Of a DNA stretch of 64,000 nt, positions 1 to 18,611 are shown piece after piece. Numbering within the stretch: the first letter of the stretch is position 1; each line of letters starts with the position of its first letter. The stretch spans positions 496,001 to 560,000 of the forward strand of contig NZ_FPEJ01000013.1 of NCBI RefSeq assembly GCF_900117445.1. The letters are read 5' to 3'. The DNA is from Hyphomicrobium sp. NDB2Meth4 (GTDB lineage: Bacteria > Pseudomonadota > Alphaproteobacteria > Rhizobiales > Hyphomicrobiaceae). A model generated the notes under the pieces. The model did not search any database, was not told the DNA's origin, and saw only the letters and a list, made by a program, of their open reading frames with translations. The position numbers and the translations under genes are program-made.

Positions 1-285
1 CCGGTTGCGACCGGACTTCGAGACCAGCGTCCACGCTTGATCCTCACGGGGGCGCAGATTGAAGGTGAGCGGGATGGTGGTGCTGGTCGGCCGTTGAATG
101 TACCTGCGGAAATCCAGACTATGCTGGGAGTTGAATCGGCGCTGGTATCCCCGGCCAGAATCCTCATTGAGCACGTCCGCAAAGCTCAGTGAGCAGAGGA
201 GGGACGCGGGCGCGTAGCCGAGCAAGACCGGACGGTTGGCCGATTGACCAAGAAAACAATCAAGTGTGACGATTTTGGAGGCCAT
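1..285 (-). CDS. DGQHR/DndB-like domain protein (N-terminal 95 residues; cut by window edge)
   Basis: An ATG at 285 opens a leftward frame that stays open for 95 codons to the window edge. After about 35 residues comes a stretch with R-R-F-N-S-Q-H-S, D-F-R-R-Y-I-Q and T-T-I-P-L-T-F-N-L-R. This resembles the core of DGQHR-domain proteins, a family that includes DndB, the regulator of DNA phosphorothioation. It lies on the same strand as the four-gene operon ending at 411, after a 125-bp gap containing a nested palindrome. Reading the gene on this strand rather than the opposite one rests on this family-like motif. The assignment is from memory of the family; the C-terminal part, including any DGQHR signature itself, is outside the window. 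Confidence 0.6.
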   Translation of the reverse strand, partial: MASKIVTLDCFLGQSANRPVLLGYAPASLLCSLSFADVLNEDSGRGYQRRFNSQHSLDFRRYIQRPTSTTIPLTFNLRPREDQAWTLVSKSGRNR

Positions 286-295
286 TAGAGCTCCG

Positions 296-343
296 AATCT
301 GCAGCTGCCCACTGCATATTGCAGTGAAGGCTGGCTGCAGATT
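296..343. promoter_or_regulatory. Nested inverted repeat ahead of the DGQHR-like gene
   Basis: Outer arms AATCTGCAGC (296-305) and GCTGCAGATT (334-343) are perfect 10-bp complements. Inside them CACTGCA (310-316) and TGCAGTG (320-326) form a second perfect pair around TAT. The block begins 11 bp upstream of the ATG at 285. No T-tract follows in the leftward direction, so an intrinsic terminator is unlikely. An operator, a cruciform binding site or an mRNA leader hairpin are the options. Confidence 0.55.
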
Positions 344-410
344 AGGCAAGCTCAAGCACGATGTCGATCGATTTTTTGGAGAGGAGAGGAACTGGGGACA
401 CAGGGGGTGG

Positions 411-1445
411 TCAGTCGAGCTTGGCCTTTATTTTCTCAAGCTGTTCCCGGAACTTGCCTGCCCGTCGCTCGATATCCTTCAGCTCGTAGAGCATACGGTC
501 TCGGATCGGCTTTTCCGCATCCTGGATGTCGTCCTTGGTATCGGCGCGTGCAAGCCACTCCCGAAATCGCTTCAGTTTGTTGAGAGCGTCGTTCTCGGCA
601 CCGGCGTTCTTGGCGCTCTCGTACGCTTCCTCAAGGGAGTACCGGCCGTCGATGAAGCGGGTCAGAACCTTTTTGGGCGCGGTACAGATTGCAGGGAGCT
701 TATCGCGAAGGTCCATCGCTGTCGGGATGGCCTTCGATTGTACCTGTTGAACGATAAGAGCGTCGAAGCCTGAGTGTTCTTCTCGCGCCTTTCTGATTTT
801 TTGCGATTTTAGATACTCATCGTAGTAGCTCCAACGGTCGCGGTCAGTCTCGCCGTGAAGGATCATAAACTCAAAGACATTGACGATGTGCCGTGCTTCT
901 TTGTCACTGATCCCGATCTCCTGAGCAACGGTTGAGAGCGGAATGGAATGTTGCTTGTGTCGGCGGAACAGAAAACCGGCCCGTTCATAGGGCAACCAGT
1001 CCTTCTTCCCCTTGATGTGGTACTCGCCAAGCAACGCGAAGACGAGTTTCTCATCGATGGTATCAGGGAGAACCGTGCAACGGATCTGCGCCCATTTAAC
1101 GGGATCTTTGGTTGCCAGATGGCGATAGGCTGCTAGCCTGCTGTTCCCTTCCAGGACAACAAAATCACCTGCGCGGACGATGATGGGATCGATGAGACCG
1201 CCATTTTCAGCAATACTGACGATCAGTTCCTTGACATGTTCGTGGTCTAGAAGCTTCTCGCATATTTCGTCTTGATCCGGTGTCCGGTCGTCCGAGCGCA
1301 CAAGTGAATAAATGCGCGGATTGTCAACGTAGAAGCGTAGCTTTTTGTGGTCGAGGTCGAGCGTCTGCGTAGGGAACGTTTGTCCGCGCAACGTAAGCGA
1401 CCCGACGAAAACGTTCGATCCTTGTATGGTCGCCATGATGGTCAC
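411..1445 (-). CDS. ParB-N-domain protein with C-terminal coiled coil (second of the operon)
   Basis: 344 aa. Around residues 30-130 there is a ParB/sulfiredoxin-like N-terminal domain: N-P-R-I after a hydrophobic strand, then G-G-L-I-D-P-I-I-V and V-L-E-G-N-S-R-L-A-A-Y-R, which occupies the place of the ParB G-E-R-R box. A possible helix-turn-helix (V-A-Q-E-I-G-I-S-D-K-E-A) lies near residue 180. The last 60 residues are highly charged and likely helical. The first codon is GTG and overlaps the TGA of the upstream helicase gene (GTGA), so it is translationally coupled; an ATG nine bases further in is the alternative. Some ParB-N proteins are CTPases or nucleases, but which activity applies here is not visible. 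It is the last gene of the coupled set, 125 bp before the DGQHR-like gene. Confidence 0.75.
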   Translation of the reverse strand: MTIMATIQGSNVFVGSLTLRGQTFPTQTLDLDHKKLRFYVDNPRIYSLVRSDDRTPDQDEICEKLLDHEHVKELIVSIAENGGLIDPIIVRAGDFVVLEGNSRLAAYRHLATKDPVKWAQIRCTVLPDTIDEKLVFALLGEYHIKGKKDWLPYERAGFLFRRHKQHSIPLSTVAQEIGISDKEARHIVNVFEFMILHGETDRDRWSYYDEYLKSQKIRKAREEHSGFDALIVQQVQSKAIPTAMDLRDKLPAICTAPKKVLTRFIDGRYSLEEAYESAKNAGAENDALNKLKRFREWLARADTKDDIQDAEKPIRDRMLYELKDIERRAGKFREQLEKIKAKLD

Positions 1446-2908
1446 TCTAGTCCTAGAACGTTGCGAACGATGCGGCCAAAGTCGTAGTTGGCAATGGCCT
1501 TATATTCATCCGGCGAGATGTCTGATTGAGCGAGCTGCGCAGCGAGCCGTTTTGCCATAAGGAGGGAGTCTACCCATTCGTCGACCGTGCCCGTCGCGAT
1601 TAGATTCCAAATGTAGCAAGTGCTTTTCTGCGAAATGCGATGGATGCGGTCCTGCGCCTGCAGATAGTCGTCGAGACTGAAGGACCGATCATAAAAGACA
1701 GCATGACTGGCCATCGTAAGAGTCAGCCCCTCCTTCGCGGCACCGGGTGTCGCGACCAATACCCGAACGGAAGGATCGATCTTAAACGCGCGTATGGCAT
1801 CGTTTCTTTCGGCGATGGGACGCGAGCCATGAACGTAGACGCAGCCGAAACTTGAAAGTTGATCGGCTAGCCACTCCGCGTTGTCGATGAAGTTAGTCCA
1901 GACGATTATTTTCGTATTCTCAGCCACGGCTCGCCTTACGAGCTCGACCAAAGTAGGCAATTTACCGGGTGCAGAGCTGTATGAATGGTCAACCAGTCCT
2001 GGGTTCGAGGCAATCTGGACAAGGCGCAGGAGCCGTTTGAGAATATCTTCGGCGTCGTCATCGATAAGCACCCCATCGCGTACGATTTCGGCGCGCAACT
2101 CTTCTTGATAGCTATTATAAAGTTGCTGTTGATTGTCCTCCAGCTTGACAGGGATGTTCTCAATATTCTTTTGGGGCAGCTCAATTCCAGCCGTGTCCTT
2201 GGTTTCGCGGACTGTAAATGGTTGGATTTTGGCGAAAACGGCGGCTAGTGATCCCTCGAACTCAGCGCGGCGGGATTCATCCTCCCAAAGGTCGTTACGA
2301 AGATCGAGTTGCCGCTTAAAATCAGAGAAATCTTCTCCGAGCGACTTACCATGATCGAGAAAGTAGATTTGAGACCATAGGTCGTACGGCCGGTTCGCGA
2401 CCGGTGTGCCTGTCATGATCACGCGGCGGGCGAAACCAGAGGCGAGGCGGTGGAAGGATTTGGTGATATCCGCATCAGGATTCTTGATTTTATGGGATTC
2501 ATCCAAAATGACTCCTACTCGCCGCGTCCTGAGGAACAGTGCGAGCCGCTTCTCTTCGGTTTTGACGACTTCATAGTGGGCAAGCAAAAAGCGTGTCGGG
2601 CTGTTCAGTGCGAAAAAGTTCGACGCGTGGTTTTGATCCATTACCCGCGCAACGATATGGGTGTGCGCGCGGATTTCCTCGGACCAGTTGTCGATCAGCC
2701 CCCTTTTGGTGATGATCATCACAGTATCGACTTGATTTGTGGCGAGCCATTCCAAGCCGAGGTCGATACCGATCTTGGTTTTTCCGAGGCCCTGTTCGTG
2801 AAAGAGCGCCGCGTAGGGCAGCGACTTAACCGCCTCGACGGCCTGAACCTGATACGCGAAGGCCGCATGTTTGGCATCAAGCCGGATGTCGGGGCGAGGT
2901 CGAAGCAC
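1442..2908 (-). CDS. SNF2/DEAD-type ATP-dependent helicase or translocase
   Basis: 488 aa from a GTG at 2908. I prefer this start over the in-frame codon at 3010, which would overlap the upstream gene by about 97 bp, because the GTG follows that gene's stop by 5 bp and has a GAGG box 9 bp upstream. Walker A G-L-G-K-T is at about residues 40-44 and the DExH box D-E-S-H at about 136-139. T-G-T-P-V-A-N-R follows, and a C-terminal helicase lobe carries the motif-VI-like D-R-I-H-R-I-S-Q. The length fits a minimal two-lobe SNF2 core without accessory domains. Such motors move along or remodel double-stranded DNA and are common partners of nucleases in defence systems. Its 3' end overlaps the next ParB-like gene by 4 bp. 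Confidence 0.85.
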   Translation of the reverse strand: MLRPRPDIRLDAKHAAFAYQVQAVEAVKSLPYAALFHEQGLGKTKIGIDLGLEWLATNQVDTVMIITKRGLIDNWSEEIRAHTHIVARVMDQNHASNFFALNSPTRFLLAHYEVVKTEEKRLALFLRTRRVGVILDESHKIKNPDADITKSFHRLASGFARRVIMTGTPVANRPYDLWSQIYFLDHGKSLGEDFSDFKRQLDLRNDLWEDESRRAEFEGSLAAVFAKIQPFTVRETKDTAGIELPQKNIENIPVKLEDNQQQLYNSYQEELRAEIVRDGVLIDDDAEDILKRLLRLVQIASNPGLVDHSYSSAPGKLPTLVELVRRAVAENTKIIVWTNFIDNAEWLADQLSSFGCVYVHGSRPIAERNDAIRAFKIDPSVRVLVATPGAAKEGLTLTMASHAVFYDRSFSLDDYLQAQDRIHRISQKSTCYIWNLIATGTVDEWVDSLLMAKRLAAQLAQSDISPDEYKAIANYDFGRIVRNVLGLE

Positions 2909-2913
2909 GGATG

Positions 2914-3324
2914 TTAGCCTCGCGGAATGTCGGTAATGAAATGAAATTGGATTTCGTAGCGAGGCACGTACTGAAGGCTTCGAATGATGCCTTGAGCGCG
3001 CGGCAGGCAAATCCAGGGCACCGCAAGGTAGAATTGAGAGGAAGGGCGTAGGCTCAGATGCTCAAGAAAGGCCGCGATCTGCCTCGCAGACCGATCGCTT
3101 TCCAAATCCTCTGGGGTCTTCGCCTCGCCGAGCACATGGAAAGTTTCCGGTAGGTCCGATGCAAACACGTCTGGAGTGTAGCCGCCAATCTTTGGCGGTC
3201 GATCAGCGCCGTACGAATGGTGATCTGCCAGCATTAGAAAACTACCCACCGTCTTGTGCCGGGCACCGATGACATCGATGAGGCGTTCGACCAGCGAAAC
3301 GTGCTGGAAGGACTCGCCGGACAT
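2914..3324 (-). CDS. Predicted small PD-(D/E)XK nuclease
   Basis: 136 aa. Residues 50-70 carry P-D (51-52) followed 15 residues later by G-E-A-K-T with E67-x-K69, bracketed by hydrophobic strands. A glutamine at 82 in the following helix fits the usual PD-(D/E)XK arrangement. That pattern is seen directly; the nuclease assignment is inference from it. The ATG overlaps the stop codon of the upstream ParB-like gene (TGATG), and 5 bp after its own stop the helicase GTG begins, so it is made together with the motor protein. No other domain is present, so target choice would have to come from its partners. An inactive structural homologue is the alternative. Confidence 0.6.
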   Translation of the reverse strand: MSGESFQHVSLVERLIDVIGARHKTVGSFLMLADHHSYGADRPPKIGGYTPDVFASDLPETFHVLGEAKTPEDLESDRSARQIAAFLEHLSLRPSSQFYLAVPWICLPRAQGIIRSLQYVPRYEIQFHFITDIPRG

Positions 3325-4340
3325 CAGTCACCCTTGTTGAGTTCAGAGATGAGGCGCTTCAGCTCCTCGTGAGCGTCCGTCACGTATCGGACCGTATCGT
3401 CATTCGGACTCTCGCGCAGCCGGACAAGTTCCTGGAACGGAAGCGCGCCGACCTTCTCCGCGAGGGCGCGGGCAAGCTGTGCAATGGTCGCGTTTTTTAT
3501 TCCCGCCGAAAGCTCCGGCTTCTCGAGAACGTCCTGGGCGGCCTTGATGTCCTTTTTGATAAAGACGTCGCGCGCTTTTTTATCTGCAAGCACGCGAGGC
3601 AGAACACGAACCGAGGCTAGACCCTTGAACTTCCCGGCCTTCATCCATTGCCCGAAGTCCTTAAGGGAGAATCCGGCCCGCAGGATGCCATCCTTGACCG
3701 GTTGTGCTTGAAGCTCTACAAAACCTGAATACCGTTCGGTATCATAGTATTCGCCTGGCTCGAACAGCGGGCGAAAGTACGTCTCCATGTCCGCGTAAGC
3801 CTGGATTGCCTTGGTGACATCCCGGCGACTTCCGCCGCAGAGAGCGACGACGCGATCTAGCGGCATCTTCTCCTTATGACAGAGCTCCCAGAGATACTTT
3901 GCCTTGGAGTAGGCATCCCATTGCCTGGGGCCTACGAGATGCGCTTGCAATCGAATCGCATCGACATCGACAGCCGATAGCTGTTCGTGCACGAGGGCCG
4001 GGATCGCAGTCCAGTGCCCCGGCACCTTTTCCGCTACGAAAGACCGGTAGAGGTAGAGGCGGGTGTTGCCTTCGATGCAGAGATAGCGCCCATCAGCCTC
4101 CTTACGCACGATGATGGGCTGCATGATGCCGCCATTCGCCAGTATAGAATTCTTGAGCTTCTCCGCTGTCGTGCCGCCTTCTTGGTCGTCCTGCGACCCC
4201 GACGTGACGTCGAGCGCGAGCGCGATCTGCTCGTAAGTTGGCTCTCCCTCGTAAATCTCTAGGTAGCGGCGTATTCGAGGATTTGTCCTGTCCAGCTCGA
4301 CCTGATCGATTGGCAAGAGAGCAAACTTCCCCGCGTCCAT
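3324..4340 (-). CDS. ParB-N-domain protein (first gene of the operon)
   Basis: 338 aa. Residues 8-100 resemble the ParB N-terminal/sulfiredoxin fold: L-P-I-D-Q-V, N-P-R-I, then L-K-N-S-I-L-A-N-G-G-I-M-Q-P-I-I-V and I-E-G-N-T-R-L-Y-L-Y-R. A helix-turn-helix-like stretch (L-D-R-V-V-A-L-C-G-G-S-R-R-D-V) sits at about residues 160-175. It is clearly different from the other ParB-like protein at 411-1445; the two share only the domain pattern. The ATG has an upstream GGGAGGA. It opens a leftward operon of nuclease, helicase and second ParB-like protein joined by overlaps of 1 and 4 bp and one 5-bp gap. Its role, such as sensing, CTP-dependent sliding or DNA nicking, cannot be told from sequence. 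Confidence 0.75.
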   Translation of the reverse strand: MDAGKFALLPIDQVELDRTNPRIRRYLEIYEGEPTYEQIALALDVTSGSQDDQEGGTTAEKLKNSILANGGIMQPIIVRKEADGRYLCIEGNTRLYLYRSFVAEKVPGHWTAIPALVHEQLSAVDVDAIRLQAHLVGPRQWDAYSKAKYLWELCHKEKMPLDRVVALCGGSRRDVTKAIQAYADMETYFRPLFEPGEYYDTERYSGFVELQAQPVKDGILRAGFSLKDFGQWMKAGKFKGLASVRVLPRVLADKKARDVFIKKDIKAAQDVLEKPELSAGIKNATIAQLARALAEKVGALPFQELVRLRESPNDDTVRYVTDAHEELKRLISELNKGD

Positions 4341-5058: not shown

Positions 5059-5670
5059 TCAGTGATGCAGCGCGAGCCCGGCCCACTTGAAGCCGCGCGT
5101 GAGCGTGGCGTGCGAGACTTCCAGCCGCTCTGCCACTTCGCCTATTGTGATGCCGACCTGCGTGACGTGGCGGTGGCCTTCGAGGATATCCTCGATACCC
5201 AAACGGCGCGGCCTTCCTAGCGTTGCGCCGCGCGCTTTGGCGGCGGCTAGTCCTAGCACCGTGTTCTCGCGGATCACGTCCCGCTGGAATTCGGCGAAGG
5301 CGGCGAAGAGGTGATAGACGAGCTTCCCTCCGGGCGTTGTCGTGTTGATGCCTTCGGCCAGCGAGCAGAAATGGATGCCCTCGTTCCCGAGCCGCACCAG
5401 CAGATCGGAGAGGTGCTGGACGGAGCGGCCCAGCCGGTCGAGCTTCAGGACCACCAGCGCATCGCCGCGCGTCAAGGTCCCCAAGGCTTTATCGAGGCCG
5501 GGGCGGCTCGCCTTGCCGCCCGAGATTCCGTGATCCTTGAAGATCTCATCGCACTGCGCGGCTTTGAGCGCATCGAGCTGCATGCGCAGCTTTTGGTCCG
5601 TGGTGGAAACCCGCGCATATCCGATGCGCTTGCCCGTCACCTCGATGCTTGGGAAAAAGAGGGCCGTCAT
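5059..5670 (-). CDS. Serine recombinase (resolvase/invertase family)
   Basis: 203 aa, the usual size of a small resolvase/invertase. The N-terminal catalytic domain begins R-I-G-Y-A-R-V-S-T with the nucleophilic serine at residue 22. The L-D-R-L-G-R-S motif sits at about residues 75-82, and the E-F-Q-R-D-V-I-R-E-N helix at about 130. The C-terminus has G-R-P-R followed by a Hin-like helix-turn-helix. The ATG at 5670 has GAGGTGACGTC directly upstream. Such enzymes resolve cointegrates or invert segments at short crossover sites; a matching palindrome lies 45 bp upstream of the gene. It probably belongs to the element's maintenance functions. Confidence 0.92.
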   Translation of the reverse strand: MTALFFPSIEVTGKRIGYARVSTTDQKLRMQLDALKAAQCDEIFKDHGISGGKASRPGLDKALGTLTRGDALVVLKLDRLGRSVQHLSDLLVRLGNEGIHFCSLAEGINTTTPGGKLVYHLFAAFAEFQRDVIRENTVLGLAAAKARGATLGRPRRLGIEDILEGHRHVTQVGITIGEVAERLEVSHATLTRGFKWAGLALHH

Positions 5671-5714
5671 GACGTCACCTCGTCAAAATCGATCCTTTTT
5701 GCCGAGGTGTGTGA

Positions 5715-5732
5715 CGCGCTAGTGCTAGCGCG
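5715..5732. promoter_or_regulatory. Palindrome upstream of resolvase (possible res/operator site)
   Basis: CGCGCTAG (5715-5722) and CTAGCGCG (5725-5732) form a perfect 8-2-8 inverted repeat. A related GTGCTAG half-site recurs about 60 bp further, inside CGTGCTAGTGT. Resolvase recognition sites commonly lie just upstream of the recombinase gene. The assignment is inference. Confidence 0.4.
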
Positions 5733-5817
5733 GTAATTTGGCGGAGTGCCGCCATTCTTCAAGTCGTCTCGTATCATTTTCGTGCTAGTGTTCCCTCCTG
5801 ATCAATAACGATCGTTT

Positions 5818-6165
5818 ATGTTGAGCAGGAAAGCACTGGCCGTTGCAAGCCTGAGTACCATCGTATGCAGCGTTGCTGCGGGCGCAGGCGCGGAAGACGC
5901 CTTCAAGAGTTCGAAGTTCCTCACCTATCCGGCAGATGCGCAGACGAGCTACATCAGCTCGTCGGTCATGATGGCGGGGACAATCGCATCGAAAAATGCC
6001 TTGAGCCAGTCACGCTGTATTGATGACTGGGCCGTCAAGAACGGAGCATCAGGCTTTCAGCCCATTGTCGAGGCGATGCGGAAGTTTCCCGACTACCACC
6101 CGACCGCAGTGATCTTTGCCGTGCTTCAGAAAGCGTGTGGTTCCTTCGAGTATGCGCGGAAGTAA
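5818..6165 (+). CDS. Secreted hypothetical protein
   Basis: 115 aa. The N-terminus reads as a signal peptide (basic M-L-S-R-K, then a hydrophobic run ending A-G-A-G-A-E-D near residue 26). The mature part has two cysteines (in S-R-C-I-D-D-W and K-A-C-G) that could form a disulfide. The layout, with a helical segment, a central Cys and a Y-H-P...K-A-C end, is faintly like the small periplasmic Rap1a/Tai immunity family, but I cannot confirm it. It runs divergently from the resolvase and ends one base before the stop of the leftward gene at 6166. Confidence 0.6.
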   Translation: MLSRKALAVASLSTIVCSVAAGAGAEDAFKSSKFLTYPADAQTSYISSSVMMAGTIASKNALSQSRCIDDWAVKNGASGFQPIVEAMRKFPDYHPTAVIFAVLQKACGSFEYARK

Positions 6166-8492: not shown

Positions 8493-8771
8493 ATGCGTCA
8501 TTTTATTCTAGCAGCCGCGATGACCGCGGCGTTCACCGGATATCCAGCCTTAGCCGAAGAGGCGGCAGACCCGCTTCCAACGCGCGTCGAGATCAATCAG
8601 GCCACCAAGACCTTCACCTTCATCATTGACAATAAGCCCGTCGCGCTGCTCGACAAAAATGGTCTGCACGTGCGCGAGGCCATCGTTTACGGCGGCACGC
8701 TGACCGATGCGGGTGCCGTCTCCTTCGATAAGCGCATAGTCGAGATGAAGAAGGAGGCCGGTCATGACTAA
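8493..8771 (+). CDS. Small exported hypothetical protein
   Basis: 92 aa from the ATG at 8493, chosen because GGGGGAG lies just upstream and a clear signal peptide follows (M-R-H-F-I-L-A-A-A-M-T ... A-L-A-E-E near residue 22). An open frame extends 80 codons upstream but crosses the hairpin block. The mature part (about 70 aa) alternates hydrophobic and charged residues, with T-F-T-F-I-I-D and V-S-F-D-K-R, suggesting beta strands. The stop overlaps the ATG of the next gene by 8 bp, so the two exported proteins are co-translated and may form one surface structure. Function unknown. Confidence 0.7.
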   Translation: MRHFILAAAMTAAFTGYPALAEEAADPLPTRVEINQATKTFTFIIDNKPVALLDKNGLHVREAIVYGGTLTDAGAVSFDKRIVEMKKEAGHD

Positions 8772-10476
8772 GCGCCTTCTTTCCCTGCTGGTTTTTCTGT
8801 TTCTCGCAGTCCCGGCCTACGCCGCACTTCAGGGGACAGACAGCAAGCCAGGTGATGCCTGTAGCGCCGGAGAAGCCGGACATACGAGGCGCAATGCCAG
8901 TTCCACGCAGGACCCTAAGGAGATCACGCTGATCTGCAACGGCAGCCAGTGGGTCTCGGCCAACGGGGGCGGCGCTATGAAGGGAACGAACGTGACCGGC
9001 GCGTGCACGCCGGCGCTTGACGGGACGGTCAAATATAACGCCTCAGCCAGCCCGCCCTGGCAGTATTGCGACGGAGGTACGACGTCCTGGCTCCCTTTTA
9101 GATTGCCCCAGTGCGCGGACGACGACACTGGGGAGTGCACACTGGCTGCGTTGCGATCAAGCAGCGATCCCAACTTGGTGGCCTCCAGTATCCGCTGCGG
9201 GCAGAACATTCTGGGCGTGACGGGCACCTATGACTGCACGGCCGACCCCGCCGCGTTTTCGGTTAACGATCTCACGGGGCAGGCGACTGCCAGCCTTATA
9301 TCCTCCAATACCCTGACGCCCACAGGTTACACCGATCCGCGGCCTGTGAGCGTGACAGGGCAAGGCAGCCCGCAGGTATCGGTCAATGGCGGGGCGTGGG
9401 TGACATCGGGCTGGATACTGCCCGGCTATACGGTGCAAGCGCGCCTCACTTCGGCCAGCGCGTACGATACGCCCTATGCCGCGACGATCAGCATCGGGGG
9501 CGTCAGCGACACATGGAATGTGCGCACCAAGGTGCAGGACACGACGCCCGATGCCTTCAACTTCACCGACCAGACGAATGTGCAGCTCAGCACGCTGACG
9601 ACCTCGGCCAGCATCACACCCACGGGATATGACGGCCCTGTCAGCGTTTCCGTGAGCGGGCAGGGCAGTCCGGAAATTTCGATCAACGGCGGGGCGTGGG
9701 GCAGCGGCGGCAGTATCAACCCGGGGCAGACGCTCGCCGTGCGCCTGACATCGAGCGGTTCGTATCTGACCACACTGACAGCGACCGTAACGGTCGGCGG
9801 CACGAGCGATAGCTGGAGCGTGCAGACGCGGCCCGATGTGACGGTCATCAATATCAGCGCCAACACGGGGAACGTGAACTTGTTCACGCTGGCGGGTAGC
9901 CCCGTCGCCGCCGGAAGCTGGGAGTTCGTGATTGCATCCGGGGTGTATGTCTATTCAACCAACACAGGAAATGCCGCAATCACGACGGGGGTTTTTCCGG
10001 CGGGCTCTGGTGTCAAGATTACCAATAACGGTTATATCCTCGGCATGGGAGGGGGTGGAGGCTATTCTGCCGCTGGGGGTGAGGCTGGCGGCCCCGCCAT
10101 TTCCCTCGCTAATAATGTAACAATCGACAATTCCGCTGGCTTGATCTACGGCGGCGGCGATGGCGGCTCCGGTGGATGGACGTTTGATTTTATGAGTAAT
10201 TCCTATTACGGCGGCGGCGGTGGTGGTGGTCAAAGCTACCATACATCACTTGGCGGCGGCAGCCCTCAAGGAGGTGCAGGCAATGGCGGCAATGGGACAT
10301 TTTCCGGGCCAGGCGGCGGCGGCATAGGAGGCGCTACAGGTTGGACCGCTTACAACAATAACGGAGCCTCCGGCGGAAGTTGGGGTAACAGCGGCAAAGC
10401 CGTTGCCGTCAATGGCAAGACCATCACCTGGCTCGGGGGCAATGACTCAACGCATGTGAAGGGTGCGGTGAATTGA
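8764..10476 (+). CDS. Secreted fibre-like protein with two Ig-like repeats and glycine-rich C-terminus
   Basis: 570 aa. Signal peptide at 1-21 (basic K-R, hydrophobic core, A-Y-A-A). Residues 30-160 hold several Cys pairs around T-G-E-C-T and Y-D-C-T. Two tandem repeats of about 95 residues follow (about 165-258 and 259-355). Each has F-x-x-x-D-x-T, L-T-P-T-G-Y or I-T-P-T-G-Y, V-S-G-Q-G-S-P, N-G-G-A-W, R-L-T-S and T-x-G-x-S-D-x-W, a pattern of bacterial Ig-like beta-sandwich modules. After about residue 420 the sequence is glycine-rich (G-G-G-G-G, A-G-G-x-A-G-G) as in phage tail-fibre tips. It probably sits on the cell surface or on an appendage and binds a partner cell or surface. That role is inference. 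Confidence 0.8.
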   Translation: MTKRLLSLLVFLFLAVPAYAALQGTDSKPGDACSAGEAGHTRRNASSTQDPKEITLICNGSQWVSANGGGAMKGTNVTGACTPALDGTVKYNASASPPWQYCDGGTTSWLPFRLPQCADDDTGECTLAALRSSSDPNLVASSIRCGQNILGVTGTYDCTADPAAFSVNDLTGQATASLISSNTLTPTGYTDPRPVSVTGQGSPQVSVNGGAWVTSGWILPGYTVQARLTSASAYDTPYAATISIGGVSDTWNVRTKVQDTTPDAFNFTDQTNVQLSTLTTSASITPTGYDGPVSVSVSGQGSPEISINGGAWGSGGSINPGQTLAVRLTSSGSYLTTLTATVTVGGTSDSWSVQTRPDVTVINISANTGNVNLFTLAGSPVAAGSWEFVIASGVYVYSTNTGNAAITTGVFPAGSGVKITNNGYILGMGGGGGYSAAGGEAGGPAISLANNVTIDNSAGLIYGGGDGGSGGWTFDFMSNSYYGGGGGGGQSYHTSLGGGSPQGGAGNGGNGTFSGPGGGGIGGATGWTAYNNNGASGGSWGNSGKAVAVNGKTITWLGGNDSTHVKGAVN

Positions 10477-12195: not shown

Positions 12196-12420
12196 ATGTC
12201 ACGTACCCCGGAAGTCATTATCAGCAAGCCCCGGAAGCTGCTTAACCGTCTGGTCGGCTGTGCCAGCGCCGGATGCGCGCTGCTCAGCGTAGCCTCATTC
12301 TTACAGGGAGGTCCCTACCTGCTTCTGCTGATCGCCGGCCTTGTGCTGGCGTTCATCGCCGATAGCATCAAGTTCAAATACGTCAAGACCTACGAAGAAG
12401 GCGGCTACAAGCTCGTCTGA
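12196..12420 (+). CDS. Small membrane protein
   Basis: 74 aa with a strong ribosome site (AAAGGAGAA) before the ATG. Two hydrophobic segments lie at about residues 18-36 and 40-56, followed by a charged tail (K-F-K-Y-V-K-T-Y-E-E). It is 22 bp after the previous small membrane protein and 67 bp before the coupling-protein start. It is probably part of the mobilization membrane complex, by position only. Confidence 0.65.
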   Translation: MSRTPEVIISKPRKLLNRLVGCASAGCALLSVASFLQGGPYLLLLIAGLVLAFIADSIKFKYVKTYEEGGYKLV

Positions 12421-12487
12421 TCACAATCCTGAAGGGGCCGCATCGCCAGCGGCCCCGTTTGCTGTCCAGCCTTGGGAGTTCGCAGCA

Positions 12488-14107
12488 ATGTCCTCCTCCT
12501 CCTTCAATGAGCAATACCGGCACGGCAGCGCGCGGTGGGCGGATGACTATGAGCTGCGCGCCGCAGGACTGCTGAATGGGCGCGGTCTGCCGATAGGGTT
12601 TGCCGGTCATCACCATCTGCGGCTGGAGGGCGATGCGCCGCTGGTGACGATTGGCGGTGCGGGCTCGGGGAAGCTGCGCGATGTGATCGGCCATATCTTC
12701 GGTGCCCTCGGTCACGGGGGCCCAATGATCGTGCTGGACCCGCGCGGGGAGATTGCCGCGACGTTCCTGCCCGCGCTCGCCCATGCGGGCATTCAAGGGT
12801 ATCTCTGGAATCCTTATGGGCTGCACGGGCTGCCCTCTCATTCGTGCAACCCGCTCGACCCGATTGATCCGCGCGCGCCCACGTTTCATGCGGACTGCAA
12901 GCTCTCGGCCCGCTCGCTCATCACCGTTACCAGCAAAGCGGAGGGAAAGTATTTCGAGCAGCGGGGCAGCGGCTGGGCTGACGTTCTCTTGAAGCGCCTT
13001 GCAGAAGTGACGGGCGGGGCGAGCCTGCCTGCGCTGATGCGCACCGTGAACCTCATTGAATCCGGCGCGCGCAGCTGGCCGGAATTTCTGGAGGGGATGG
13101 TGCAATCCGCCTTTGAAGACGTGCGCCGCACGGCGGGCGAGATGCTGACCAAGCAACAGGATTCCCCGCGCGAGTTCGGCTCCATTATGGGCGAGATCTA
13201 TGGCAGCCTTTCATTCCTCGATGACCCCGCGCTCCAAAGGTCTTTAGAGTACCCGGACTTCTCACTGGCGGAGCTTTGCCGGAGCGATAAAACCGTCGTC
13301 GTCTTCCTGATGATGCCCGCCGAGTATTTGCACCAGAGCAGCGCGGTGCTCCGGCAGTTCTTCATGGCATCCATGCTCTATAAATCGCGCGCGCCGGGCT
13401 CGGGCCGCGTGCTGATGCTGATTGACGAAGCCGCGCAACTCGGCTCGTTTCCCGGCCTGCAGATGGCCTACACCTACGGGCGCGGCATCGGCATTCGCCC
13501 GTGGACGTTCTGGCAGGATATCGGCCAGATCATTCATAACTTCGGCCCTACAGGCGTGCAGACGTTTCTGGGCTCCTCCCAGATGCGGCAGTTCTTCGGC
13601 GTGCGGGATTATCAGACCGCCAAGCTGATCTCGGACATGCTGGGCAGCGAGACGCTGGAATATGACGACAAGCGCCTGCAGGAAGCGGCAAAGCGCCAGA
13701 AGGTGCAGGCCGTGCAGCGCCTCATCGCGGGTGATGACCCGCTGAATGCGCTGCTCGACGTGGCGCATTACGGTCAGGCCGCAAAGCTCCGCACCAAGCA
13801 GGCGCGGAAACTCGTGACCGAAGATGAGATTTTATCGATGCCGGAGGACCGGCAGATTCTTTTTATCTCGGGCAAGAACCTGCCGCCTGTCTCAGCATTG
13901 AAGCTTCCGTATTTCTCGCGGCCCGAGATGGCGGGCCTGTATCTGCCCAACCCGTATCACCCGCCGCAGGACAGCGTGCAGATCGCAACGCGGTGGGGCA
14001 CCAGGCGTGCGCGCGTGATCCGGGAGCCCGTGCCGGGGAAGTTCGCATCTTTCGCCCAATATCGCGAGGGAAGTTGGGCATACGTAGAAGGCTACAAACC
14101 AACCTGA
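12488..14107 (+). CDS. VirD4/TraG-type type IV coupling protein (cytoplasmic ATPase)
   Basis: 539 aa from the ATG at 12488; a longer frame would run into the previous gene. Walker A is G-G-A-G-S-G-K at about residues 56-62, and Walker B is V-L-M-L-I-D-E-A-A-Q-L-G at about 307-318. The segments W-N-P-Y-G, S-C-N-P-L-D-P-I-D and F-F-G-V-R-D-Y-Q-T-A fit the TraG/VirD4 family. No transmembrane helices are found at the N-terminus, unlike classical VirD4, so membrane contact may come from the two small membrane proteins just upstream. The protein would bring the relaxase-DNA complex to a secretion channel supplied from elsewhere. Confidence 0.85.
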   Translation: MSSSSFNEQYRHGSARWADDYELRAAGLLNGRGLPIGFAGHHHLRLEGDAPLVTIGGAGSGKLRDVIGHIFGALGHGGPMIVLDPRGEIAATFLPALAHAGIQGYLWNPYGLHGLPSHSCNPLDPIDPRAPTFHADCKLSARSLITVTSKAEGKYFEQRGSGWADVLLKRLAEVTGGASLPALMRTVNLIESGARSWPEFLEGMVQSAFEDVRRTAGEMLTKQQDSPREFGSIMGEIYGSLSFLDDPALQRSLEYPDFSLAELCRSDKTVVVFLMMPAEYLHQSSAVLRQFFMASMLYKSRAPGSGRVLMLIDEAAQLGSFPGLQMAYTYGRGIGIRPWTFWQDIGQIIHNFGPTGVQTFLGSSQMRQFFGVRDYQTAKLISDMLGSETLEYDDKRLQEAAKRQKVQAVQRLIAGDDPLNALLDVAHYGQAAKLRTKQARKLVTEDEILSMPEDRQILFISGKNLPPVSALKLPYFSRPEMAGLYLPNPYHPPQDSVQIATRWGTRRARVIREPVPGKFASFAQYREGSWAYVEGYKPT

Positions 14108-17117: not shown

Positions 17118-18611
17118 TTATCGCTCACGATCAATGTCACGATTGCGCGCGGGCGGCGGGGTACGGTCGCCATTACGGAGCCGGTCAAGGCGCTGCTCCA
17201 TCGAAGGCTGACGCGGTTGCTCGGGGGCTTCCTGCTGCAGGGGCGCGCGTGCGGGCGTGCTCGAACCATCTTTCGCGCGTTCCGGCGCTTTGGGCATCTC
17301 CCGCTCTTGCTGCGCCTTCGGCCTGCTTGAGCGCGCCGCTTCTGCCCGTTTCGATGCAGGCCTTGCCTGCGCCTCGAACTCCTTCATCACGGGCGGGGCT
17401 TCGAGCGTGCGCTTGATCTGGCTCTGATCGGTGCGAAGCTCGCGCAGCAACGCGGCGTGCCGGTCACGCACGTCTTTGATGTCGGCCTGCAGCCGCTGGC
17501 GATCAGACATCTGTGCGTCGATCAGGGCCTGACGCTGGTCCCGGTCGCGTGCGAGGGCCAGATAGGCTTCGCGCTCATTTTGCTTCTGCACGGCAGCATG
17601 CTTGCCGCTTACGCGGGCCCATAGGCCCCGGACTCCGGTATCAAACCGCGCGGCGCGGGCTTTGGACTCGTCCTGACGGCGCTGCTGCTGTCCGGCATCG
17701 AGGCGTTGGCGTTCCTGCCGGTGCGCGAGCACCATCTCTTTGCGCTTATGGTCGAGCGGCGCAAGATCGCGGCGCTTTTGAAGCTCTGCCTCGGCGCGGT
17801 GGCGCTGGAAGGTGCCCGCCAGATCCTTGGCCAGCTGCGCGCGGGCCTCGGCAACGCCGGGCAACTTGTCCGGCTCCCCCAGACGCTTGGCAATATCCTT
17901 CGTCTTCTTGCCGACGGCCCGCGCCACAGAGAACACTTCGCCTTCCGGCGAGAGGGCGACATGCCCGCGCCGGTCGCCGCGGGCCAGCGTAAAGCCCCGG
18001 CTTTTGAGCGCCTGCATGAAGGCAGCCATCGAGTCTGAAACCGCCCAGCATTCCTGCATCATGGATTTGAGATCGCGGGCATCGCGCCCCGCGCGCTTGG
18101 CCTGATGCCATTCGGCGAGCGTGAAGTTGCGGGGATCGGCCTCGCGGCTGTTCATCAGGCCGCGCGGCATCTTCCAGCCATTCTCGATGTAAAGCTCGCG
18201 GCTCAAGTCCCGCAGCTTGGTCTTGAAAAAGGGGAGGTTCTTCGCCGTCATGGTGTCGGCGTCAATCCGGCTCCAGACAGCGTGCGCGTGCCTGCGGCCC
18301 TCCTTCTCATGGAAGACGACGATGCGCGGCTGGCCCTTGAGGCCGTTCTTCTCCTCAACCCATTCGATGGCAGATTCAAACGTCTCCACCGGCACCCGCT
18401 CTTGGGGAGGCGGGTTCAGCGAGACCGAGAAGAGGAATTGTCTGCACTTCGTGCCCCGGCTCATCCCATGAGCCTCTTTCAGCGCGCCGACGATATCGTC
18501 CGAGGCGAATCCCCGGATTTCATGAACCTCAATATGCTCGTTGTCACGGCTATTCAAAAGATGAAGCGCAAGCTGTTTGCCGCCGCCGCGTTGCGCACCC
18601 TTCAGGATCAT
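17118..18611 (-). CDS. Relaxase/mobilization nuclease
   Basis: 497 aa. The relaxase metal-binding motif is seen as H-E-K-E-G-R-R-H-A-H-A-V-W-S-R-I-D, with H101, H108 and H110. The N-terminal domain (about 1-200) fits MOB relaxases. The rest is a long Arg/Gln/Ala-rich coiled coil and a proline-rich tail. I see no tyrosine in the first 135 residues, where MOBP/MOBQ relaxases normally keep the nicking tyrosine, so nicking chemistry may differ. It starts 6 bp after the MobC-like gene, as in many mobilization operons. It would nick at an oriT that I could not locate. Confidence 0.85.
   Translation of the reverse strand: MILKGAQRGGGKQLALHLLNSRDNEHIEVHEIRGFASDDIVGALKEAHGMSRGTKCRQFLFSVSLNPPPQERVPVETFESAIEWVEEKNGLKGQPRIVVFHEKEGRRHAHAVWSRIDADTMTAKNLPFFKTKLRDLSRELYIENGWKMPRGLMNSREADPRNFTLAEWHQAKRAGRDARDLKSMMQECWAVSDSMAAFMQALKSRGFTLARGDRRGHVALSPEGEVFSVARAVGKKTKDIAKRLGEPDKLPGVAEARAQLAKDLAGTFQRHRAEAELQKRRDLAPLDHKRKEMVLAHRQERQRLDAGQQQRRQDESKARAARFDTGVRGLWARVSGKHAAVQKQNEREAYLALARDRDQRQALIDAQMSDRQRLQADIKDVRDRHAALLRELRTDQSQIKRTLEAPPVMKEFEAQARPASKRAEAARSSRPKAQQEREMPKAPERAKDGSSTPARAPLQQEAPEQPRQPSMEQRLDRLRNGDRTPPPARNRDIDRER

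Follow-up and report, generated by a model that had tools for sequence, protein, structure and literature searches.

In this study, we analysed a 64,000-nucleotide stretch of the genome of Hyphomicrobium sp. NDB2Meth4 (contig NZ_FPEJ01000013.1, positions 496,001 to 560,000; G000:C4:496001-560000 in our numbering, hereafter the window) and found that the genes at its left end are part of a seven-gene cassette, the operon continuing leftward past position 1. The cassette combines a module of two ParB-fold proteins, a putative PD-(D/E)XK nuclease and an SNF2-type helicase with a DGQHR (DndB/DpdB-like) protein, a predicted radical S-adenosylmethionine (radical-SAM) enzyme and a predicted Hsp90/MORC-like GHKL ATPase (Table 1). 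The radical-SAM and GHKL genes form a constant core, around which the other genes behave as exchangeable modules. The gene set recurs in other genomes and is therefore not a chance arrangement; it is almost certainly a real conserved system, and probably one that serves defence. For the fuller reading, namely that this mobile and modular system defends its host by modifying nucleic acids and by a restriction-type mechanism, we consider the chances to be evenly balanced.

Table 1. Genes of the cassette and of its carrier element. Positions are those of the window; position 1 is L002:16001 (L002, own contig), and negative positions lie to its left.
Feature	Position	Strand	Basis or remark
ParB-N, ParB-fold, 338 aa, first module gene	3324..4340	-	PF02195 ParB_N 27.9 bits (Pfam cut-off 26.3)
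Putative PD-(D/E)XK nuclease, 136 aa, no named family	2914..3324	-	conserved residues in 32-sequence alignment
SNF2-type helicase, 488 aa, GTG start	1442..2908	-	PF00176 95.5 bits; Helicase_C 65.2 bits
ParB-C, ParB-fold, 344 aa, GTG start overlaps SNF2 stop	411..1445	-	ParB_N 17.4 bits, below 26.3 cut-off
DGQHR (DndB/DpdB-like) gene	-746 to 285	-	first 95 codons (1..285) inside window
Predicted radical-SAM gene, 545 aa	-2376 to -739	-	8-bp overlap with DGQHR gene
Predicted GHKL (Hsp90/MORC-like) ATPase gene, 523 aa	-3944 to -2373	-	4-bp overlap with radical-SAM gene
Resolvase, element backbone, right border of cargo slot	5059-5670	-	not part of system
Coupling protein	12341-14107		T4SS-DNA_transf 145.7 bits
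Relaxase	17118-18611		46.2 bits

The radical-SAM gene was present at a minimum of 72% identity in 12 of 72,556 plasmid records (a number of which are near duplicates; seven of the 12 typed as conjugative) and in five further, distant records. A genome scan gave 145 confirmed relatives, the best 80 of which (55–76% identical) were mapped, and a scan of IMG/VR with the same gene found seven viral contigs. Across the 95 mapped loci (the own locus, seven plasmids, 80 genome contigs and seven viral contigs), the GHKL gene lay directly downstream of the radical-SAM gene in 93, with a 4-bp overlap in 50 of these; at the other two, the contig stops after the radical-SAM gene (L074) or a GHKL frame is present with its start called too far upstream (L045). 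By record title, the hosts of the best 80 are Proteobacteria, Acidobacteria, Verrucomicrobia, Chloroflexi, Nitrospirae, Gemmatimonadetes, Latescibacterota, an Acidimicrobiia and a Binatia bin, many of the relatives coming from metagenome bins, where contigs can be misplaced. Cultured carriers include Rhizobium leguminosarum WSM1325 (plasmid pR132505) and Novosphingobium aromaticivorans (plasmid pNL1), and the core was also seen on chromosome-sized contigs. The same-strand upstream neighbour was a small DGQHR gene at 45 of the 95 loci, ParB-C at 11, a large DGQHR gene at five, a second GHKL gene (GHKL2) at three and none of these at 31. One contig (JAOAPE010000002.1, 331,692 bases) holds two core copies, L041 and L054, which are 69% and 71% identical to the query and have different neighbours.

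The modules that accompany the core vary from locus to locus. An SNF2 module, scored when an SNF2 gene and at least one ParB gene were present, occurred at 50 of the 95 loci, a PIN nuclease of the PF18476 (PIN_8) family, usually with GHKL2, at 30, a large DGQHR gene at 19 and none of the three at 19. The corresponding numbers were 32, 28, 15 and 6 for the 60 loci flanked by 8 kb or more on either side, and 25, 21, 14 and 6 for the 50 fully flanked loci among the 84 left after a 95% radical-SAM redundancy cut. The small nuclease was found at 47 of the 50 SNF2-module loci (the exceptions being L057, L058 and L080), with ParB genes varying in number and order and the modules varying in orientation relative to the core. 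Five of the six fully flanked loci that lack all three modules (L038, L041, L046, L054 and L072) have a second GHKL gene, and L038, L054 and L072 also hold a gene of one ATPase cluster, the L038 member of which matches the HerA central domain (PF01935, 32.0 bits). The large DGQHR protein matches PF14072 DndB at 54.9 bits (cut-off 29.1).

Searches that started from other genes of the cassette showed the association with the core to be reciprocal. In the plasmid collection, the GHKL query retrieved exactly the 12 records with a close radical-SAM gene and no other, the seven records found with SNF2 (E<=1e-60) and the five found with the nuclease all lay within these 12, as did seven of the eight found with ParB-C, and the PIN query returned 15 records, namely all 12 core-bearing ones and three matched at 14-36% coverage; in Roseomonas, PIN gene and core share a plasmid but are some 90 kb apart. 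Scanning IMG/VR with the nuclease alone gave seven loci, every one of which carries ParB–nuclease–SNF2–ParB together with radical-SAM and GHKL; two of these loci are on contigs not retrieved in the scan with radical-SAM. Mantel correlations, which include shared host history, were high within the core (radical-SAM/GHKL r 0.84, n 82; radical-SAM/DGQHR 0.65, n 39) and within modules (SNF2/ParB 0.90, n 41, and 0.94, n 37; PIN/GHKL2 0.92, n 22), and low between core and modules (radical-SAM/SNF2 0.25, n 43; radical-SAM/ParB 0.33 and 0.40; radical-SAM/PIN 0.04, p 0.20; radical-SAM/GHKL2 0.35). Because co-divergence is high within modules and low between modules and core, the modules behave as units moving between cores. 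The radical-SAM protein (mean pairwise identity 0.65) is much more strongly conserved than PIN (0.25) or the small nuclease (mean column identity 27%), and SNF2 (0.49) is intermediate. Among 397 genomes of the window's order, surveyed with a first pass that scored few candidates per genome, radical-SAM was found in three, GHKL (1e-30) in the same three and the nuclease only in our organism; full-length PIN was found in one of the three carriers, with three partial PIN matches elsewhere. One carrier (G346) is apparently the same genome as L050, and another (G086) has the arrangement large DGQHR–radical-SAM–GHKL.

The preliminary description of the window had proposed an undescribed five-gene cassette, comprising four closely joined leftward genes and a DGQHR-like fifth gene in a mobilizable element, with a modification enzyme possibly lying further left. 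The open frames of the four genes and their joins on the minus strand (TGATG, then a 5-bp gap, then GTGA) were verified, and the helicase assignment was upheld by the Pfam scores in Table 1 and by the motifs GLGKT, DESH and RIHR, all of which were found. For the 136-aa protein, searches of Pfam, PADLOC and NCBIfam yielded no family even at E=1; it was assigned to the PD-(D/E)XK nucleases because of the residues conserved in 32 aligned sequences (H8, P43, D52, E67, A68, K69 and Q82 invariant; P51 and G66 at least 90% conserved), in which the predicted signature (P51-D52, E67-A68-K69) is intact. Both ParB proteins keep NPR and EGN-x-R, invariant in the 11 aligned copies, while the Pfam cut-off is passed by the product of 3324-4340 alone. 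The DGQHR likeness of the fifth gene holds for the whole protein, which scores 115.3 bits against the NCBIfam model (cut-off 58.85), but not for the part inside the window (28.4 bits, below the cut-off); the motif itself, reading DCQHR at residue 111, lies beyond the window edge. Against PF14072 DndB the protein reaches 24.8 bits, below the cut-off of 29.1.

Two parts of the preliminary description had to be revised, although co-occurrence of the genes in unrelated genomes, defence-rich neighbours and a candidate enzyme to the left were all found. The five genes are not a unit, since SNF2, ParB and nuclease make up a swappable module and the constant radical-SAM–GHKL pair lies wholly outside the window, and the candidate writer to the left of position 1 is not a dnd, ssp or dpd gene but the radical-SAM gene beside the GHKL gene. 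No hit at E<=0.001 was obtained in the own genome with the models for DndC (TIGR03183) and DpdA (NF041059), in searches whose controls hit 5 and 3 of 14 named genomes, respectively, none above the cut-off, and the DGQHR protein reaches 43.8 bits against the DpdB equivalog NF041060 (cut-off 300). With DndC and DpdA matching nothing in the genome, we did not file the cassette under Dnd, Ssp or Dpd. The SNF2 protein attains 77.1 of the 1500 bits needed for the NCBIfam equivalog of ZorD (Zorya) and 54.1 of the 610 needed for DrmD (DISARM), and up to 114.4 bits against PADLOC DpdE models, and the ParB-fold N-terminal part matches PADLOC PDC-M38A (36.0 bits) and PD-Lambda-5_A (29.2 bits). The PADLOC 2.0 models match the genes through shared domains only. 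PIN with GHKL2 was rejected as part of the own-genome system on the missing PIN match (an empty result that is weak proof) and the single GHKL gene of that genome.

Sequence and modelling together place the candidate writer in the radical-SAM superfamily. Its only invariant cysteines in 53 sequences are C175, C179 and C182 (CxxxCxxC); it reaches 23.5 bits against the Pfam radical-SAM model, below the cut-off of 29.5, has weak NCBIfam matches and has no PADLOC match even at E=1. In rankings of re-ranked Foldseek hits, beyond which other families may also fit, the model of the L020 protein (53 sequences; mean predicted local distance difference test score, pLDDT, 85.2) is closest to AprD4 (Z 15.1; 3.7 A over 354 residues) and MgmA (Z 14.6; 4.3 A over 330), followed by TsrM (13.7), OxsB (13.4), CysS (13.2) and MiaB (13.2), with the viperin-like 9dfw (Z 8.0) far under this top group. 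Over residues 3-135, the model aligns with the cobalamin-binding domain of AerR (Z 10.0), and the modelled fold is that of the cobalamin-domain radical-SAM class. For the partner protein, the N-box, G1 and G2 ATP-motif residues are intact and the model of the L020 protein (mean pLDDT 90.5) matches Hsp90 (Z 21.6 over about 300 residues), MORC3 (19.4) and topoisomerase VI (17.9), which identifies it, as modelled, as an Hsp90/MORC-like GHKL+S5 ATPase.

Homologues of the radical-SAM enzyme, short ones among them, were found in 11 of 50,697 phage records, five of which were inspected. DNA methyltransferase genes lie within 5 kb of the radical-SAM gene in two of the five (a Bacteroides phage and Dulem virus 39), the neighbours in Marinitoga virus 1 include genes annotated as HerA and nuclease, and archaeal virus vir215 has neither among its annotated neighbours. 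Seven aligned homologues, including those of phages, have CxxxCxxC, D142-N143 and Q169-G170 in common. This phage context is the main pointer to nucleic acid as the substrate, and it is only a hint. The fifth record, the faecal phage scaffold L103 (MT836743.1, 218-8078), is a compact variant outside the main clade, with a row consisting of a 383-aa gene, a possible HerA-like ATPase gene, GHKL, a radical-SAM gene of 618 aa (4-bp overlap) and a gene matching Schlafen AlbA_2 (60.9 bits). The 383-aa product looks NurA-like by eye and has no Pfam or NCBIfam match, and the possible HerA-like ATPase matches nothing in Pfam and reaches only 17.1 bits against an import ATPase of NCBIfam. As neither this gene nor that of the Marinitoga virus is confirmed by Pfam, we do not extend the HerA label beyond L038. 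On a Bosea plasmid (L098:8025-8954), a short radical-SAM homologue lies near genes for thymidylate synthase, dihydrofolate reductase and RtcB and a gene annotated as a 3'-phosphoadenosine 5'-phosphosulfate sulfotransferase.

Taking these data together, there is about an even chance that the core marks nucleic acid. The radical-SAM enzyme would modify a base or sugar of host DNA (or RNA), and the ATP-driven GHKL dimer would clamp or remodel the nucleic acid, holding the enzyme on it or feeding it to the enzyme. The DGQHR protein, where present, may regulate the enzyme; its matches and the DndB matches link the system, at the level of sequence, to modification systems. The swappable modules would discriminate marked from unmarked nucleic acid and then cut, and in our organism the readers would be the two ParB-fold proteins, the SNF2 protein as translocase or motor and the putative PD-(D/E)XK nuclease. 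Because PIN and most HerA-like sets come with a GHKL gene of their own, GHKL heterodimers may act as the plug between module and core. A bolder version, which we put forward tentatively and think possible though somewhat doubtful, is that the cobalamin-type enzyme makes a previously unrecognised radical-chemistry mark, that GHKL ATPases form a docking clamp for whole effector sets (SNF2-ParB-nuclease, PIN or HerA-like), with the GHKL paralogues of PIN and most HerA-like sets pairing with the core GHKL, and that the solitary phage copies of the enzyme copy the mark.

The genomic surroundings argue for a role in defence. For 115 proteins neighbouring 20 loci, matches to 108 PADLOC families were obtained at E<=1e-15, compared with 7 families for 109 proteins in control stretches of 20 kb, one per contig, from the same contigs. 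This contrast overstates the number of distinct systems, since the families overlap one another and HerA-like partner genes may account for some of the DndH matches. Listed matches include DndH, mad8, AbiEi, AbiEii, UzuA, a DRT and PtuA, and on one plasmid genes for a patatin phospholipase and a DncV-like cyclase lie about 10 kb from the core. Several other observations weigh against a nucleic-acid-marking defence system. DGQHR is directly upstream at only 50 of the 95 loci (45 small, 5 large) and is therefore not essential; 19 of the 95 loci, or 6 of the 60 fully flanked ones, have none of the three modules; and the eighth plasmid record found with ParB-C, from Vibrio (26% identity), has no close core. 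Three of the five inspected phage records, one of them unannotated, have no annotated DNA methyltransferase nearby, and the PIN module suggests an RNA target at part of the loci. Moreover, enzymes of this radical-SAM fold class also work on sugars, peptides and small molecules, so the substrate of the core could be other than nucleic acid.

In two alternatives, the core has another substrate or product. It might modify an RNA of the host, such as the tRNA on which MiaB acts, or a host protein such as a translation factor, the nucleases being abortive effectors freed when a phage disturbs the modified state. The MiaB-RNA complexes among the best fold matches, the PIN_8 module at 30 of the 95 loci and the RtcB or tRNA-ligase genes near two short radical-SAM homologues (one on a plasmid, one in a phage) are all consistent with this; however, the commonest module, that of SNF2, ParB and PD-(D/E)XK (50 of 95), is of DNA type. 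MiaB and RimO methylthiotransferases also need three further cysteines for a second cluster, and in the 53 sequences no further cysteine is invariant or nearly so; because there is one invariant three-cysteine set only, this second cluster is missing. Overall, we regard modification of host RNA or protein as unlikely. A viperin-like enzyme making a small antiviral nucleotide or signal, to which the nuclease modules respond or from which they are separate, would agree with the closeness in fold of OxsB, the substrate of which is a deoxynucleotide, and with the match to a viperin-like structure. The near-constant GHKL pairing and the swappable nucleases, which are not known from viperins, and the lack of any PADLOC match up to E=1 make this explanation quite improbable.

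Other explanations question whether the genes serve defence, or whether they form one system at all. Carriage on plasmids, seven of the 12 close records being conjugative, the mobilizable element and the ParB-fold proteins would fit a competition or maintenance device of plasmids and integrative elements, acting by incompatibility, exclusion or a post-segregational effect, but the genes are also present on contigs of chromosome size and, across phyla, in surroundings rich in defence genes, and in a congener the corresponding slot is occupied by subtilase and trypsin–nuclease genes that we read as defence-like cargo; a device of this kind seems rather unlikely. That the ParB–nuclease–SNF2–ParB genes and the core are independent systems that merely meet in common hot spots is hardly credible. 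Their weak co-divergence (r 0.22-0.40), the variable orientation of the module and the one ParB-C match in eight without a close core are as such a coincidence would predict, whereas the core was present at all seven viral-contig loci found via the nuclease alone and accompanied SNF2 in seven of seven plasmid records.

The modification-based defences known so far rely on methylases, on the insertion of sulfur or on the exchange of bases. With Dpd, the present system shares the logic of modification combined with helicase and nuclease, a DGQHR protein that matches DpdB and an SNF2 protein that matches DpdE models; it differs in having no DpdA match in the own genome, the writer's place being taken, on our reading, by radical-SAM and GHKL. 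With Dnd and Ssp it shares DndB-like DGQHR proteins, the large DGQHR gene giving the strongest match, and a modular writer with varying nucleases, a combination argued for Dnd in passages of PMC10853773, but no DndC match was found in the own genome. The MORC/paraMORC restriction-modification operons described in passages of PMC2292703 likewise place bacterial Hsp90/MORC-fold GHKL+S5 ATPase genes with SWI2/SNF2 helicase and restriction-endonuclease-fold nuclease genes. Here, however, GHKL pairs with radical-SAM, and GHKL paralogues have PIN or HerA-like partners; neither 'radical' nor 'ParB' appears in the text of PMC2292703, and the DNA methylase that is frequent in such operons is not among the seven genes. 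The likeness to PDC-M38A and PD-Lambda-5_A concerns the ParB-fold N-terminal part, the match spanning part of those proteins only. Prokaryotic viperins resemble the system in having a radical-SAM enzyme in a presumed antiviral setting, but the fold comparison ranks cobalamin-domain enzymes far ahead, and nuclease modules and a GHKL partner are present here.

No description of the radical-SAM–GHKL pair was found in PADLOC 2.0 (2023) or in the searched full-text literature, which mostly excludes subscription papers and preprints, nor in passages of PMC10853773, PMC12839542, PMC10250203, PMC3710099, PMC12715929, PMC11291487 and PMC2292703. The seven-gene system thus appears to be undescribed, although a description may exist elsewhere. 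Its logic resembles that of Dnd and Dpd while the writer and its partner differ, which leaves a fair chance of something categorically new. If the reading is correct, a radical-SAM writer would add new chemistry to the bacterial epigenetic arsenal, probably in the form of a new DNA or RNA nucleoside, and Hsp90/MORC-like ATPases, relatives of animal gene-silencing proteins, would gain a defined bacterial partner with which to be tested. A conserved writer with shuffled modules is also a natural experiment on effector exchange in immune systems.

The seven genes are cargo of a mobilizable element. The preliminary description had placed the genes inside such an element; the window contains a coupling protein, a relaxase and a resolvase (Table 1), and farther left of the cassette are a methyltransferase-like gene, a large serine recombinase gene and tRNA-Tyr. 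The cassette has a G+C content of 55.1%, compared with 62.7% for window 4400-58000 and 64.1% for L002:1-8500. In a congener (G090), the methyltransferase-like stretch is 72% identical at the nucleotide level and the resolvase stretch (5088-5912) 83% identical, with different cargo between them; as the same flanks enclose other cargo there, the seven genes fill the cargo slot of the element. The methyltransferase-like gene (L002:11138-11770) was rejected as the writer, being present at one of 97 loci searched, and is taken as element backbone because the 72%-identical stretch is kept in the congener with other cargo. An attachment site at tRNA-Tyr with a right-end repeat was also dropped, as L002:8301-8900 and the window have no 16-mer in common, and the right end was not found. 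In the congener, the slot (L151 2436-10680) holds genes for a subtilase of 898 aa, a 769-aa trypsin-like/nonspecific endonuclease fusion and a protein of 783 aa that matches nothing in Pfam, and this protease–nuclease set looks like another defence cargo.

Further partner sets were noticed at L023, L038, L048, L054, L072, L077, L086 and L089, where a second GHKL gene occurs with a protein of about 300 aa (cluster 1) and/or a member of ATPase cluster 2 (HerA-like in L038). A TcmP/three-Cys-motif identity for the ~300-aa partner was dropped, the library match being a weak one to PP_RS20740 (36.1 bits). L023, L038, L048 and L054 share a gene family, the L048 member of which scores 77.4 bits against radical-SAM mobile pair A (cut-off 355). 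The large DGQHR protein of L009:8499-10859 (786 aa; also L007:15183-17492) has its DGQHR domain at residues 229-535, flanked by ends of about 230 and 250 aa without assignment. At L069:4930-5955, ParB-C is divided between short frames of 184 and 136 aa, so the module there may be decayed. In the window itself, positions 8764-10476 of the mobile element encode a 570-aa protein that has no Pfam match, is glycine-rich near its end and looks secreted by eye.

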